Positions 17,520 through 27,245 of a stretch of 64,000 nt of DNA are shown in pieces. A program made the translations under genes and the position numbers. The notes beneath the pieces are model-generated. The model ran no database searches and was not told the DNA's origin. It saw only the letters and a list, made by a program, of their open reading frames with translations. The stretch lies in assembly GCF_017874475.1 (NCBI RefSeq), contig NZ_JAGGLO010000005.1, forward strand, positions 62,001 to 126,000, read 5' to 3'. This stretch comes from Anaerococcus degeneri (GTDB lineage Bacteria > Bacillota > Clostridia > Tissierellales > Peptoniphilaceae). Position 1 is the first letter of the stretch, and each line of letters begins with the position of its first letter.

Positions 17520-17547
17520 ATTTTACTAGTTTTAGGCTTTTATTCAA
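17520..17547 (-). promoter_or_regulatory. Promoter of def operon, overlaps smc stop
   Basis: Minus strand TTGAAT (17542-17547), 16-bp spacer, TAAAAT (17520-17525). The TGA stop of smc is part of the -35 box. Confidence 0.55.
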
Positions 17548-20500
17548 TTTTCTCCAAAGCCAATAGAATAAAGCTTTGAGATACCCTCGTCATCTATAGT
17601 TACACCGTGGATTTTCTCTGCAAGCTGCATGGTTGTCTGCCTGTGGGTAATCATAATAAATTGGGTCTTGTCTGATAAGCCCTTTAGGTATTCTATATAT
17701 CTTTTGATATTAGCTTCATCAAGGGCAGCGTCAATCTCATCTAGGATTGAAAATGGAGCTGGGTTTTGCTCAAAAATTGCAAATAAAAGGGCTACAGCTG
17801 TGAGGGCCTTTTCTCCACCTGATAATAGTGAGATTGATTTTAGGGACTTGCTTGGTGGTTTGGCCTCAATTTCAACCCCTGCTGTCAGAAAGTCTTCGCT
17901 ATCTAATATTAGCCTTGCATCTCCACCCATGAAAAGAATTTTAAAAATCTTGGTGAAATTCTCATTTATGATTGCAAAGTTTTTTGAAAACTCATCCTTC
18001 ATTTCCTTCTCAAGCCTTACTATCATTTTTTCTATGTCAGCCTTTGAATTTCTCAAATCTTCGACCTGATCTTTTATAAAATTAACTTCCTTATCGATAT
18101 TATCAAAGTCTTCAAGAGCTGTTTCTGTGAAAAATCCCACTTCATTTATCTTTTTTTGGATGTCTATTAATTCAGATTTTGTTGGATTTAATTTTTCATC
18201 TGCCTTGAATTTCTCAGCTAAATCATCAAGGCTCATTGTTATATAAGGGCCAACCTCATCTTCAAGGTTTTGATAGTTTTCATTAGCAGAGTCAATTTTA
18301 TAAGAAATTTTGACCCTTTCTAAGTCAAGGTTTTTTATCTGGTCTTCAAGCTTTTGATTTTCCTCAATTAATTTGCTGTTTTCACCCTCCCTTTTTGAAA
18401 GGCTATCTTTTAGGTCAGTGATTATTTGGCTTAGTTTTTCGGCTTCTTCTTGGTAAAGCTTTATTGATTTTTCAAGGGATTCTGCCTTTTTCTTTGACTC
18501 TTCCAGGTCATTTTCAAGATTAGCAAATAGTTTTTCTTGGATTTTTTTATTTTCCCTTATATCTTCCAAAGAATTTTTGATATTGACTAAGGAGTTTTCC
18601 AAAAGGCTCTTATCCCTCTTATTTATTTCAAGCCTATTTGTAAGGCTAATAATTTCTTCTTTTAAAATATCAAAAGCCTTAGACTTTTCAGTAAGTTTTC
18701 TATTTTGATTTTCTAGGTCTTCCTTAAGGCTAATTTCTTCTGCCTTAAGCCTTTCTATGTCGATGTCAGATTCCCTATCTTCATAGTCGAGCCCCTCGGC
18801 ACCAAGGTCTGCCTTGAGTTGACTAAGGGATTCTATCTTAAGTCTTAATCTTTCAATCTCACTTGCAAGATTATTTTTCTTCTTATCCTTTCCTTCAAAA
18901 TCTTCTTTGAGGTCTAATAATTCGTTTTTCTTGTAAGCTAGGTCTTGGTTTATTTCAGATATTCTTTTTTCAAAATCTTTTTGTTTGCCAGTCAAGTTTT
19001 TTATTGAATTTTCTAAATCATTTAGTTTTTTCTTCCTATTTAAAAGATTGGTTGATGAACGCTTATTTTTATTTGTTCCCGCAACCATTGATCCCCAAGT
19101 GTTGATTATATCAAGGTTTAAACTTATTATTCTGTAACCTTTTATCTTTTTAGATAAGGAAATGGCATCATCTATATCTTTTACAACCACTGTCGAGCCC
19201 AAAAAGTGACCTATAATTCCTCTTAATTTTGGATCATATGCCACAAGCTCATAGGCCATGGCCACAACTTCAGGTTCTATTGGTTTTTCTTTCAAAAAAG
19301 AATTTATAGAATCAATTGGTAGGAAGGTAAGCCTGCCTAGCTTTTCCCTATTTACAAAATTTATTAATTCTCTAGTATCATCCTTAGTCCTTGTTACAAT
19401 ATTTTGAAGTCCTGAGCCGATTAGAGTGTCAATTATTTCCTCATAACCATTTTTAACTGAAATCAAATTGGCAAGAGTATCTAAATAAAAACCTCCAAGG
19501 CCGTTTATCTTTGTCTTTTTAAGAAAATCTTGGACAGGGTAAAAATATCCCTGGTTATTTTCCAAGAGGTTCTTTTCGATTTTGTAATCAGAAAGGAGGG
19601 ACTTTAGGTCTAGTTTTAAATTATTTAGGCTAGATATTGACCTATCTAATTCTTCATTTGCCTTATTTATAGCCTCTGCAAGATTATTTGTCTTTTCTTT
19701 TAGGTCTAAAATTTCACCATCAAGTTTTTTTTCAGATGCTTTTAAAGATTCGTATTCTTTTTCAAGTTCACCTATTTCTATGTCAAGCTTATCGATTTTT
19801 TGCCTTTTCTCTTCAAGGTCTTTTTTTCTTTTTTCATCTATGATGGCTCTTGATTTTTCAAAGACTTGGTAGTCTAAAATCTTGGCCTTAACTTCTTCAT
19901 AGGCTATTTTTTCCTTGAAGATTTCATCATTCAAGGCCTTTATTTCCTTTTCTAATCCATCTCTAGTTTCTTTTTTGGTTTTTAAATCATTTTCGATTTC
20001 AAGAATAGATTTTTCTATTTGATTAAGACTATATTCTTTTTCCTCAAGTTCTTTGGATTCTTTATTAAAATTTGTCCCAAGACTTGATAAGACTTCAGAA
20101 ATTCTTGCCCTATCCTTTTCGTCATAATCGAGTTTTTGTTCATTTAATTTAAGGCTTGAATGGGCCTTTTCTATATTTTTCTCATAAGAAGAAAGGCTCG
20201 CTAAAAGATTTTCCAACCTTTCCTTATCAAGATCATAGTCTTTTTTGAAGGGACTTAGTTTTTCTTTTATTTTTGAATTTTGACTTTCTAGAGTTTTTAC
20301 CTTTTCATCAAGATCCCTAATTTGAATTTTAAGATTATCTCTCTTTTTTATTAGGTCATAAGACTTGTTTTTTAGATAAAAAAATGATTTTTTATTTATT
20401 TCATTGGTCAAATCCCTGTGTTTTAGGTAATTTTCCTTGTAGGTCTTGAAAAGATTGTAGTCTTTTTTCTTATATTCAAGTTCCTTTTCGATTATTTCAA

Positions 20501-21056
20501 GGTCATCATTAACAGACTCTAGTTTTTTGCTGGCTTCATCACGCCTATACTTGTGTTTAGAAATACCAGAAGCCTCTTCAAATATAGCCCTCCTATCCTT
20601 AGGAGAAGACAGAATTATCTCATCAATCCTACCCTGGCCAATTATAGAATAACCTTCCTTGCCAACACCAGTATCGAAAAATAATTCCCTAATATCCTTA
20701 AGCCTGACCCTCTTGTCATTTATTTTATATTCATTTTCCCCAGACCTATAGATCCTGCGTGTGATAGCGACCTTGTCATAGGGAATGTCAAGCTTCTTAT
20801 CTTCATTAGAAAAATTAAGCTTAACTTCAGCTATGTTCATTGAGCTTTTTGCTCCGGTAAAGATAACATCCTTCATATTAGCCCCACGGAGGCTTTTTAC
20901 GGATTGCTCTCCCAAAACCCACCTTACGGCATCGGAAATATTAGACTTGCCTGACCCATTTGGTCCAACAACCGCTGTTATCTGGCTATCAAATTTTATT
21001 GTTGTTTTTTCAGCAAAGGACTTAAAACCCTTAAGCTCTATACTTTCTAGTCTAAT
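17544..21056 (-). CDS. smc: Chromosome segregation protein SMC, apparent ATT start
   Basis: ATPase that condenses and segregates the chromosome. Read from an ATT codon at 21056-21054 it is 1170 residues, a normal SMC length. The first residues (RLESIELKGFKSFAEKT) match the SMC N-terminus, Walker A GPNGSGKSN is at about 33-41, the coiled coils and hinge (about 500-650) follow, and LSGGEKALTAVALLFA and FSILDEIDAALDEAN form signature and Walker B at the C-terminus. There is a stop codon immediately 5' of the ATT and no ATG, GTG or TTG before the Walker A; the first usual start (TTG, about 20920) would delete the ATP site. A GGTGGTGAT box sits 8 bp upstream. Overlaps the radical SAM stop. Confidence 0.9.
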   Translation of the reverse strand: MRLESIELKGFKSFAEKTTIKFDSQITAVVGPNGSGKSNISDAVRWVLGEQSVKSLRGANMKDVIFTGAKSSMNIAEVKLNFSNEDKKLDIPYDKVAITRRIYRSGENEYKINDKRVRLKDIRELFFDTGVGKEGYSIIGQGRIDEIILSSPKDRRAIFEEASGISKHKYRRDEASKKLESVNDDLEIIEKELEYKKKDYNLFKTYKENYLKHRDLTNEINKKSFFYLKNKSYDLIKKRDNLKIQIRDLDEKVKTLESQNSKIKEKLSPFKKDYDLDKERLENLLASLSSYEKNIEKAHSSLKLNEQKLDYDEKDRARISEVLSSLGTNFNKESKELEEKEYSLNQIEKSILEIENDLKTKKETRDGLEKEIKALNDEIFKEKIAYEEVKAKILDYQVFEKSRAIIDEKRKKDLEEKRQKIDKLDIEIGELEKEYESLKASEKKLDGEILDLKEKTNNLAEAINKANEELDRSISSLNNLKLDLKSLLSDYKIEKNLLENNQGYFYPVQDFLKKTKINGLGGFYLDTLANLISVKNGYEEIIDTLIGSGLQNIVTRTKDDTRELINFVNREKLGRLTFLPIDSINSFLKEKPIEPEVVAMAYELVAYDPKLRGIIGHFLGSTVVVKDIDDAISLSKKIKGYRIISLNLDIINTWGSMVAGTNKNKRSSTNLLNRKKKLNDLENSIKNLTGKQKDFEKRISEINQDLAYKKNELLDLKEDFEGKDKKKNNLASEIERLRLKIESLSQLKADLGAEGLDYEDRESDIDIERLKAEEISLKEDLENQNRKLTEKSKAFDILKEEIISLTNRLEINKRDKSLLENSLVNIKNSLEDIRENKKIQEKLFANLENDLEESKKKAESLEKSIKLYQEEAEKLSQIITDLKDSLSKREGENSKLIEENQKLEDQIKNLDLERVKISYKIDSANENYQNLEDEVGPYITMSLDDLAEKFKADEKLNPTKSELIDIQKKINEVGFFTETALEDFDNIDKEVNFIKDQVEDLRNSKADIEKMIVRLEKEMKDEFSKNFAIINENFTKIFKILFMGGDARLILDSEDFLTAGVEIEAKPPSKSLKSISLLSGGEKALTAVALLFAIFEQNPAPFSILDEIDAALDEANIKRYIEYLKGLSDKTQFIMITHRQTTMQLAEKIHGVTIDDEGISKLYSIGFGEN

Positions 21057-22122
21057 TTAAATCACCACCGTACTTTTTTTCTACATAGGATTTTGTAAAT
21101 GCTTTTAAATCCAAGTCGATTATCCTAGATTCATTTTCTAAATAAAATTTATGGTCATTTACAAAGGACATTTTTATCTTGTATTTATCGTAAAAATATT
21201 TTTTGTTAGATTTTTTATTACCTGCTATCAGAGAAATATCTTTGGCTTTTGCATGGATAAGGACATCTCTCCTTATTTTTTCACTTTTAATAATTTCTTC
21301 AAGGTAGAGCCTATAAATATAAGCCTCCACAAGCTGCCTCATAGCGGCATGAAAGGGTCCTGCAACCACATCTCTTCCTTCATTGATGTTTTCTGTTGGC
21401 TGAAGGCCAATTCTAATTACATTAATATCTTTATATGCAAATATCATTAGGATTTCCGCAGATATTTCTACCGCCTCTTCAAGGCTTAAAGGCTGATAAA
21501 GATCAGCCTGGTAAAGTTTTTCAAGCTTGGTATCCCTTATAACCAAGGTTGGATAAATCCTTGCTAGATCTGGTTTTATTCTCGCAGACTCAAGTGCAGT
21601 TGCAATGATTTTCTCACTGTCATCTTTATACAAACCTGGCATAATTTGATGGCCCAAAGTAAAACCATATTCTTTTATGACTTTGCTTGCATTTTTTGAA
21701 TCAAGAGCAGAATGGCCCCTTTCATTTGCGCAAAGCACCCCATCGTCAAAGGACTGGATTCCAAGTTCAATCGTATCTACCTCATAGGACTTTAAGGTAT
21801 CTAGAATGGAATTATTTATATAATCAGGCCTGGTTGAAAGTCTGATTCTATCAATAATGCCCTTCTTTTTATATTCTCCTGCAATCTCCAAATAGGAAAC
21901 CATAGTTTCATAGGGAAGGCCTGTAAAAGATCCACCATAAAAGGCAATTTCTTTTGGAGTATTTTTATCCTTAAAATATGACAAATAATCTTCAATTTGC
22001 TTTCTTATCGAAACATCATCTGCCTTGTCTTTATAATTTGTAATTTTCACTTGGTTACAAAAGGCACAGTCATGTGGGCAACCCAAAAATGGTATAAAAA
22101 TCGGAATGATTTGCCTAGTCAT
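21052..22122 (-). CDS. Radical SAM protein, Elp3-like without acetyltransferase domain
   Basis: 356-residue radical SAM protein. CPHDCAFCNQ (about 15) gives the CxxxCxxC cluster ligands, and YGGSFTGLP (about 62) and ELGIQSFDDGVL (about 137) are typical of the Elp3/HemN-like group. The GNAT acetyltransferase domain of full-length Elp3 is missing, as in the clostridial family found beside rnc and smc. Substrate unknown; tRNA modification is a guess from the Elp3 relationship. It overlaps rnc by 8 bp and smc by 5 bp. Confidence 0.75.
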   Translation of the reverse strand: MTRQIIPIFIPFLGCPHDCAFCNQVKITNYKDKADDVSIRKQIEDYLSYFKDKNTPKEIAFYGGSFTGLPYETMVSYLEIAGEYKKKGIIDRIRLSTRPDYINNSILDTLKSYEVDTIELGIQSFDDGVLCANERGHSALDSKNASKVIKEYGFTLGHQIMPGLYKDDSEKIIATALESARIKPDLARIYPTLVIRDTKLEKLYQADLYQPLSLEEAVEISAEILMIFAYKDINVIRIGLQPTENINEGRDVVAGPFHAAMRQLVEAYIYRLYLEEIIKSEKIRRDVLIHAKAKDISLIAGNKKSNKKYFYDKYKIKMSFVNDHKFYLENESRIIDLDLKAFTKSYVEKKYGGDLN

Positions 22123-22828
22123 TTTGGATCAACTCGCATGCAGCTTTGGCAGCCATCTGTTCTGCAGTTTTTTTATTCTTGCCTGAACCTTGAGCTAGGA
22201 CTCTATTTCCAAGCCTTACTTCCATAGTAAAAGTCTTGTCATGCTCTGGTCCTTCTTCCTTGATTAGTTCATAAGAAAGATTCTTTTTGCTGTGGGTATT
22301 GTAATATTCCTGAAGCCTAGTTTTGTAATCTAAAAACATTGAATCGTCTTTTATAATTTTTAGGACTTCTTCCTTATAATTATCCCTAAGAAATTGAAAA
22401 AGTCTCTCATATGAAGAATCCAAATATATTGCCGCACACATAGCCTCAAAAGTATCGGCCTTGACGTGTTTTTTAAGCTTGCCGCCTTGTTTTTTCTCGC
22501 CCATGCCAAACCTTAAATATTTTGTCAGGTCAAATTTTTCGCTTGCCTTGGCAAAGGAATCGGTGCACACAATCCTAGACCTGGTCCTTGTAAGCCAACC
22601 TTCAGGTTTTTCCTTATAGGTATTGAAAAGATATTCACTTACAACCATATCAAGGACAGTATCTCCCAAAAATTCAAGTCTTTCATTGGATTTGGTCTTG
22701 ACTCTTGCTTCATTTGTGAAGGATGAATGAGTAAAGGCTACATCTATCAATGCCTTGTCATTGAAGGTGTAGCCTATACTTTTTTCAAATTCTTCGATTT
22801 TTTCTAGTCTATCTTTTGACAAAGACAT
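22115..22828 (-). CDS. rnc: Ribonuclease III
   Basis: Double-strand RNA endonuclease for rRNA processing and antisense RNA turnover, 237 residues. The signature NERLEFLGDTVLDMVVSEYL (residues about 43-62) carries metal ligands; the second acidic cluster is DTFEAMCAAIYLD. A C-terminal dsRNA-binding domain (about 160-235) ends in KKTAEQMAAKAACELI. It overlaps acpP by one base, the conserved acpP-rnc-smc order. Confidence 0.96.
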   Translation of the reverse strand: MSLSKDRLEKIEEFEKSIGYTFNDKALIDVAFTHSSFTNEARVKTKSNERLEFLGDTVLDMVVSEYLFNTYKEKPEGWLTRTRSRIVCTDSFAKASEKFDLTKYLRFGMGEKKQGGKLKKHVKADTFEAMCAAIYLDSSYERLFQFLRDNYKEEVLKIIKDDSMFLDYKTRLQEYYNTHSKKNLSYELIKEEGPEHDKTFTMEVRLGNRVLAQGSGKNKKTAEQMAAKAACELIQND

Positions 22829-25618: not shown

Positions 25619-26020
25619 TTAATAGACCCTCTTGTATAGGATTTTGGCCTTCTTATTTTCATCTTCTTTGTAACTTGCAATCGCCCATGAACGAGTGCCT
25701 TGGTATTTTGCAGTCACAGATAAAACCTTCACGTCATTTTTATCATGAATCTTTGCCTTTGACTTATCCCTGCTAATTTCAAAGGAAGATTTGTGGTCAA
25801 AGGCACTTAATAAATCATAGTCATTTAAAGAAGAATTTATGTTTTTTTCTGCAATCAAGATATTAAGCATGGACTCTGCCTCATACATGGCAATTTTCTT
25901 ATTATAGAGAGCTTGGTTAGCGTCGAAATTTGTTTCATTTTCCTTGTAGATAAAAGTGATAGTAAGGCCAAAAACTAGGAGAATTAACAAAACATAAATA
26001 CTTATAAAGGCCTTTTTCAT
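25619..26020 (-). CDS. Small type IV pilus-associated protein (PilX-like position)
   Basis: 133 residues, not assigned to a named family. The N-terminus MKKAFISIYVLLILLVFGLTI is one hydrophobic helix without the G-F-T-L-x-E cleavage motif, followed by a soluble part rich in lysine and acidic residues. Being last in a pilin cluster, with a start overlapping the previous stop, it resembles the PilX/GspK-type minor protein in place and layout. That role is inferred. Confidence 0.55.
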   Translation of the reverse strand: MKKAFISIYVLLILLVFGLTITFIYKENETNFDANQALYNKKIAMYEAESMLNILIAEKNINSSLNDYDLLSAFDHKSSFEISRDKSKAKIHDKNDVKVLSVTAKYQGTRSWAIASYKEDENKKAKILYKRVY

Positions 26021-26508
26021 AATTTTTTATCTCCTACATAGATTGCTGTTTCAAAATTATACTTGCCATTCTTGCTTGTAAGATTAATTTTAATAATTTT
26101 TGTCATTTCATCATATTGAAGATTAATTGGTCCGCACTCGCTTATTTTATTAGGTGTGCCATTTGAATCTTTGCTTTCATCAGAACTGTGAACATATAAA
26201 AATCCATCTTTGGAATAAAATTTATAGCGCATTTCTCTATAAACATTGTTATTCTTATCATACCTGTATATAAAAGCATTGAAATTAGAATCTTTATTAG
26301 CAGCAACTTCTATTTTATGACTCATTCTTAAAGTATCATCCATATAAGCAATACCTGTATAGGCTTCCTTGTATTCTTTTTCTTCCACATAGGACCTATT
26401 CAAGGTATTTATATTAATAGAAAATAAATTTGATAGGACGAGGACCAAAAATGAAATGATAGCAAGGCTTATTATTAGTTCAATTAGGCTAAATCCTTTT
26501 TTATTCAT
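26017..26508 (-). CDS. Minor prepilin with type IV methylation motif
   Basis: About 163 residues. I use the ATG at 26508 because a GAGG box lies 6 bp upstream; it sits within the 3' end of the previous gene. KKGFSLIELIISLAIISFLV is a class III prepilin signal with the conserved glutamate at +5, followed by a hydrophobic assembly helix. The soluble part resembles PilW/GspJ-like minor pilins in size, but I see no diagnostic motif there. Confidence 0.75.
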   Translation of the reverse strand: MNKKGFSLIELIISLAIISFLVLVLSNLFSININTLNRSYVEEKEYKEAYTGIAYMDDTLRMSHKIEVAANKDSNFNAFIYRYDKNNNVYREMRYKFYSKDGFLYVHSSDESKDSNGTPNKISECGPINLQYDEMTKIIKINLTSKNGKYNFETAIYVGDKKL

Positions 26509-26836
26509 CATCGGCCTCAATCAATTCAAAAGTCTTTTCGCCAAAGCTTGCCCTAATTTTTTTATAATTTGCTTTAAGAGCTGGATTTGAGTATTTTTCG
26601 ATATTTATGACTACATCTTTGCCATTAATATTTTCTGTATAATCGCCAATTGGCTTCGACCTGTTTGTCTCTACTGCCTCTTGTAAAATAAAAATCGTAT
26701 CGGATGTATCTTTGGTTTTCTTTGAAGCATCAAGATTTACTCCCAGAGCTGGTAATAAAAATAAAGCCATCATACTTAAAATCAAGATAGCAAAGAGGAC
26801 TTCTATTAAAGTAAAGCCCTTACTTGTTTTTTTCAC
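26501..26836 (-). CDS. Minor prepilin (GspI/PilV-like)
   Basis: 111 residues. KGFTLIEVLFAILILSMMAL is a prepilin peptidase site with +5 glutamate; the V after IE and the short length resemble GspI/PilV. Overlaps both neighbours. Probable minor subunit that primes pilus assembly (family knowledge). Confidence 0.75.
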   Translation of the reverse strand: MKKTSKGFTLIEVLFAILILSMMALFLLPALGVNLDASKKTKDTSDTIFILQEAVETNRSKPIGDYTENINGKDVVINIEKYSNPALKANYKKIRASFGEKTFELIEADDE

Positions 26837-27245
26837 TTAGGTAACCTCCTACAGCTTCGATTGTAAAATACCATCTAATATTTGAATCTTTTTTTGAAAC
26901 AAAAACTAAATTATAAGCATCACTAGTTTTATCAGTGGAAACATAGGCATTTTCTGCAAAGGTAATTTTTGATGTATTTAAAGCTTTGATATATTTCAAA
27001 TTCCTAGTTTTATTACTCACTCCGCTCATTGTGTATCCACGGTTAGTAAATTCTATATAATTATTAAAACTGGTGGAAAGTGACAAATCTCTCAAATAGG
27101 AGTAATCATCGACAAAGGTTTGGATTTCATTTTTTGCACCAATTTTATCGATTATAGTAAAATTAAAAACTGAAACACCAAAACCAATGGCAATTATAGC
27201 CAAAACAATTATTAATTCTATTAGAGTAAATCCGCGTCTTTTCAT
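26820..27245 (-). CDS. Minor prepilin (GspH/FimT-like)
   Basis: 141 residues. MKRRGFTLIELIIVLAIIAI at the start is a textbook class III signal. The remaining beta-rich part ending in RWYFTIEAVGGYL is like GspH/FimT pseudopilins. Overlaps the peptidase gene by 4 bp. Confidence 0.78.
   Translation of the reverse strand: MKRRGFTLIELIIVLAIIAIGFGVSVFNFTIIDKIGAKNEIQTFVDDYSYLRDLSLSTSFNNYIEFTNRGYTMSGVSNKTRNLKYIKALNTSKITFAENAYVSTDKTSDAYNLVFVSKKDSNIRWYFTIEAVGGYLSEKNK

Follow-up and report, generated by a model that had tools for sequence, protein, structure and literature searches.

Comparison of related genomes places the probable start of smc, a core gene of chromosome organisation, at an ATT codon in Anaerococcus degeneri, and at ATT or ATA in every sampled member of a clade that comprises its genus and two sister genera. 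In this clade the near-cognate start is accompanied by a Shine-Dalgarno (SD) sequence that is predicted to be stronger than in relatives and by an overlap with the gene upstream. We consider it likely that this clade-wide near-cognate start, together with a compensating extended SD sequence, results in low, probably IF3-sensitive synthesis of SMC. The window analysed here is a stretch of 64,000 nucleotides from A. degeneri (assembly GCF_017874475.1, contig NZ_JAGGLO010000005.1, positions 62,001 to 126,000), and the features of the locus lie in it as follows.

17544..21056, minus strand: smc, 1170 amino acids if read from ATT
21054..21056, minus strand: ATT start codon of smc, aligned with the initiator methionine of other SMC proteins
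21057..21059, minus strand: in-frame TAA stop codon directly 5' of the ATT
20943..20966, minus strand: Walker A motif GPNGSGKS, smc codons 31-38, 5' of the first canonical codon
20913..20915, minus strand: TTG at codon 48, the first in-frame ATG, GTG or TTG of smc
21061..21069, minus strand: extended SD sequence GGTGGTGAT of smc, predicted energy of pairing to the 16S tail -13.8 kcal/mol
21052..22122, minus strand: radical-SAM gene related to Elp3, 5' of smc, scoring below the NCBIfam cut-offs
22115..22828, minus strand: rnc (ribonuclease III), further 5', TIGR02191

The original prediction held that the smc frame has a stop codon directly before the ATT and no ATG, GTG or TTG until past the Walker A motif. 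The window agrees in full: TAA (21059-21057) abuts the ATT, two further stops lie within the 20 codons 5' of it, and the first canonical codon is the TTG at codon 48. A list of open reading frames bound to canonical start codons begins smc at that TTG, and gene finders using only ATG, GTG and TTG would drop the Walker A region of smc in this genome. The SMC head retains this motif only when translation starts before codon 31, as it would from the ATT. The protein read from the ATT also has the SMC-like N-terminus that had been claimed for it. The ATT lies nine codons 5' of GFKSF, with the same spacing as the methionine of relatives, and residue 3 aligns with residue 3 of the SMC chain 5h66. 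Read in this way, the protein matches TIGR02168 (SMC_prok_B) over its full length, from residue 2 to residue 1165, with 860.6 bits against a cut-off of 567.35. On the minus strand the start region reads GGTGGTGATTTAA-ATT-AGACTAGAAAGT, and a folded mRNA element there was rejected, since the predicted stability is not in excess of expectation (z 0.05).

The start codon was compared across 31 genomes of the genus within a sample of 130 family genomes. A match to smc was obtained in 125 of the 130 (the exceptions being G092, G099, G113, G114 and G118), and the codon at the homologous methionine position was read in 124 after G123 (locus L283), whose N-terminus was not resolvable, had been left out. 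This codon is ATT in 30 of the 31 genus genomes and ATA in the other one (G023), and all three genomes of the sister genera g33 and g30 have ATA. Hence none of these 34 genomes, which are referred to below as the clade, has a canonical codon at the homologous position (30 ATT, 4 ATA). The remaining 90 family genomes have ATG in 60, TTG in 19 and GTG in 7; the other four have a different codon there, with the canonical codon sitting one codon earlier. At these four loci, L061, L062, L277 (g42) and L069 (g43), that earlier codon is followed by CCT, TCT or CTT. In other families of the order, 10 of 16 genomes were read, with TTG in nine and ATG in one. The best 80 of 582 loci from named records, which overlap partly with the family genomes, have ATG in 59, TTG in 17, GTG in 2, ATA in 1 and CCT in 1; among these 80, the ATA belongs to a Peptoniphilaceae metagenome-assembled genome and the CCT to Kallipyga, in which TTG lies just 5'. 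Because 33 related genomes likewise have one of these two codons here, the sequencing or assembly error that had been raised against the ATT is excluded. Codons 2 to 47 behave as coding sequence: with methionine and tryptophan left aside, 25 of them encode an invariant residue across the 34 clade genomes, and synonymous variation is seen in 24 of the 25, so that the codons before codon 48 are evidently translated.

A tree of 60 genomes was built from SMC head and IF3 residues, with the start codon excluded; among its outgroups, the branch of G097 is very long and G091 lacks IF3. A branch with an SH-aLRT support of 99 separates the 34 clade genomes from the rest. A FastTree tree with an added third part, for which rnc had mistakenly been taken in place of the upstream gene in some outgroups, recovers the same clade with a support of 1.0, and parsimony counts are nearly the same on that tree and on the tree without the third part. 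When canonical codons are pooled as one state, the smc start codon changes three times over the whole tree, and the two changes inside the clade are both between ATT and ATA. Since the changes are so few and those inside the clade involve only ATT and ATA, the comparison is most simply explained by a single gain of the non-canonical start, which within the sample never reverted to a canonical codon. For 57 other invariant codons the mean is 8.8 changes, and the five isoleucine codons among them have 6-11. Five of the 57, all of them T-ending phenylalanine, asparagine or aspartate codons, have at most two changes, so that the conservation of the smc start codon is not extreme when taken alone.

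The SD sequence was likewise described correctly in the original prediction as a good match to the anti-SD sequence 8 bp upstream of the ATT: its GGTGG ends 8 nt 5' of the start codon. The clade has GGTGGTGA at this place in 30 of 34 genomes and GGCGGTGA in the other four. The 16S 3' end of the genus was taken as GGATCACCTCCTTTCT from four loci in two relatives; a 15-base pattern for this end had no match in the draft of the window's own genome. For the clade, the median of the predicted pairing energies at smc is -13.8 kcal/mol and the weakest value -11.0, as against medians of -8.3 in the 90 family genomes and -10.2 in the 10 order genomes. A value of -11 kcal/mol is reached at canonical smc starts in 8 of the 90 and in 3 of the 10, respectively. 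The difference between the clade and its relatives has a Mann-Whitney p of 7.6e-18, a value that ignores shared ancestry. Among 56 other complete open reading frames of at least 150 codons in the window, shadow frames included and each scored at its best start within 40 codons, none attains the smc value; the best has -13.4 kcal/mol. Because the start is conserved clade-wide and accompanied by a stronger SD sequence, the case for it is stronger than it was when first proposed from the window.

This SD sequence lies within the coding region of the radical-SAM gene, whose last codons, YGGD, encode it. The TAG stop of that gene (21054-21052) shares a T with the smc ATT and produces the ATTAG overlap that had been noted earlier. 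Counted from the first base of the smc start to that of the upstream stop, the distance is 1-22 nt in each of the 34 clade genomes, with an offset of 2 nt in 12 genomes, 1 in 4, 7 in 14, 16 in 3 and 22 in one (G015). In the G015 assembly the radical-SAM gene is frameshifted (L008), and its YGGDL tail with the SD sequence and the smc ATT are intact. An overlap is also present in many relatives that keep ATG, and, as judged from these genomes, it does not force ATT or ATA on smc.

The overlap invites other readings of the same codons. Ribosomes terminating on the upstream gene could re-initiate at smc with the help of the strong SD sequence, so that the identity of the start codon would hardly matter and ATT and ATA would have arisen by drift. 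The close stop in 34 of 34 genomes suits such coupling, and re-initiation at non-AUG codons has been found possible given a mutant initiator tRNA that matches the codon (PMC2268962). However, drift would be expected to yield a mixture of codons including ATG, whereas the clade has only ATT and ATA; many relatives retain both the overlap and ATG; and the SD sequence is predicted to be stronger in the clade than in those relatives. We therefore regard this explanation as rather unlikely, although, by analogy with other bacteria, smc translation may be coupled to the upstream gene.

A constraint from the overlapping gene, which is read in another frame, may also bear on the smc ATT. That this constraint fixed the ATT, instead of selection on smc initiation, is improbable. 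The third T of the ATT does belong to the upstream TAG in 12 of 34 genomes, but in the other frame relation, found in 22 of 34, ATG would simply make an ordinary ATGA overlap, and in the four ATA genomes it would merely convert the upstream TAA into TGA. Moreover, the C-terminus of the upstream protein past GGDL or GGEL is variable in both sequence and length.

Seven of the 34 clade genomes contain an in-frame GTG GTG, three and four codons 5' of the ATT or ATA, inside the SD sequence and with no intervening stop. By sequence this pair is a candidate alternative start of smc in those genomes. As an account of the smc start in at least some species we give it very little credence, because the other 27, among them the window, have no canonical codon in the interval from the in-frame stop to the ATT or ATA. 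Nor does one occur before codon 8 in these 27; the first is codon 8 itself in one of them, and the rest have none until codon 29 or beyond. The start assigned to smc in the original prediction thus holds as far as genome sequences can tell, with other starts absent from most of the clade.

That SMC arises from the upstream gene by readthrough or programmed frameshifting, with the ATT as an internal isoleucine codon, is barely credible even though the genes overlap and TTTAAAT lies just 5' of the upstream stop in the window, because TTTAAAT is not conserved, an in-frame stop lies 1, 3 or 9 codons 5' of the smc start in every clade genome, and the frame relation of the two genes varies within the clade (offset 2 in 12 genomes; 1, 7, 16 or 22 in 22), which argues against a frameshift fusion and led us to reject programmed frameshifting.

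The near-cognate start of smc has a counterpart in infC of the same genomes. The likely infC start, 5' of K-D/E-L and a few bases past GGAGG, is ATA in all 31 genus genomes (L098-L127, L253) and in the three sister-genus genomes. Elsewhere in the family, 24 genomes were resolved at this position, 17 with ATT, 5 with ATA and 2 with ATC; loci L236 and L256 were not parsed and were left out. These starts were assigned by conservation and SD position, and some loci have an adjacent 5' ATT, or an ATG before the SD sequence. In scpA, a canonical codon (ATG or TTG) is present at or before the conserved start in all 30 loci examined from 31 genomes. The window was scanned for similarity that begins before the first canonical codon, and 71 open reading frames, shadows included, were kept, 54 of them with at least 100 codons and a match beyond the nearest genome. 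In smc, similarity to relatives precedes the first canonical codon by 47 codons, and in the others by at most 12. A genus-wide habit of non-canonical starts was thus not seen in the genes sampled (the window frames and scpA), and among the genes examined the predicted non-canonical start is particular to smc and infC.

Two other regions stood out in the window. A run of genes at 25619-27245 on the minus strand has 29-46% identity to relatives excluding the nearest (G016), and most of the neighbouring genes are far more alike. We take these genes to be type IV pilin-like, three of them having GFTLIE-type N-termini. At 28-1353 on the plus strand, G016 and G012 share several short, highly conserved frames with the window, which may be shadows of a conserved feature at the window edge.

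The reading that we prefer, a near-cognate smc start with a compensating SD sequence, can be described as a sequence of steps. The smc mRNA of the genus and the two sister genera would be initiated at AUU, or in a minority at AUA, with which the initiator fMet-tRNA would pair despite the third-base mismatch. The 30S subunit would be held in place by an unusually strong SD sequence that reaches towards the start (GGUGGUGAU) and lies within the last codons of the radical-SAM gene. The outcome would be a low output of SMC that drops as IF3 rises, as is expected for infC. To our knowledge, SMC has no role in translation initiation. A further step is to suppose that smc in the clade is under IF3-dependent translational control and that AUU and AUA were selected for it, in which case SMC would follow the balance of IF3 to ribosomes, and with it the growth state, and would be low relative to ScpA, whose gene has a canonical start. 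We put this forward tentatively, as a possibility that we favour less than low output itself.

Some background bears on these steps. IF3 is reported to disfavour weak third-base pairs (PMC10158994). Excess IF3 also reduced re-initiation, at a site without an SD sequence of its own (PMC2268962), so that this effect may not carry over to smc. In Bacillus subtilis, a larger pool of Smc hampers chromosome organisation and affects growth little, as described in PMC8357415, which makes a brake on SMC synthesis plausible. The suggestion of the original prediction that initiation at smc would be low or regulated remains a reasonable one, and we infer it chiefly from the stronger SD sequence of the clade and from the precedents in PMC13009471 and PMC5472188. 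To its remark that ATT starts are very rare, with infC as the known example, further cases can be added: Staphylococcus aureus genes that start at AUU or AUA (PMC13009471) and Streptomyces sigR, which starts at GTC (PMC5472188). According to PMC5472188, the non-canonical starts characterised in bacteria are few. In the open literature searched, no published smc with a non-canonical start was found, and the term 'smc' is not found in the main text of PMC13009471. The interest of the present case lies in the gene concerned and in the connection that it may make between IF3 and the organisation of the chromosome.

With these starts, smc joins the near-cognate sites already known from Staphylococcus and Streptomyces. 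In S. aureus, cvfC1 (AUU), ccpN (AUA) and infC (AUA) all have an extended SD sequence. They resemble smc in that a near-cognate AUU or AUA is combined with a strong SD sequence extended towards the start, and the starts of cvfC1 and ccpN are conserved among relatives (PMC13009471). At the three non-canonical sites tested there, reporter expression in poor medium was about 10% of that from AUG; for ccpN in rich medium it reached up to 30% (PMC13009471). The products of those genes, a small protein, a repressor and IF3, differ from SMC, and their starts are backed by profiling and reporters (PMC13009471), whereas the support for the smc start is genomic. In Streptomyces, the GTC start of sigR is repressed by IF3 (PMC5472188). 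Like that of smc, the sigR start is kept genus-wide (GTC in 32 of 34, GTT in 2) and follows a long conserved ribosome binding site, AGGAGGTG; the two differ in that sigR uses GTC or GTT and smc ATT or ATA, and in that repression by IF3 has been demonstrated for sigR and is expected for smc (PMC5472188). The infC start (AUU, AUA or AUC) is near-cognate like that of smc and is probably ATA in the same genus, but its weakness closes an autoregulatory loop (PMC5472188), which smc is not known to do. Compared with these systems, smc offers a core chromosome-organisation gene in which a non-canonical start and a stronger predicted SD sequence extend through an entire clade, so that the evolution of such a start becomes traceable.
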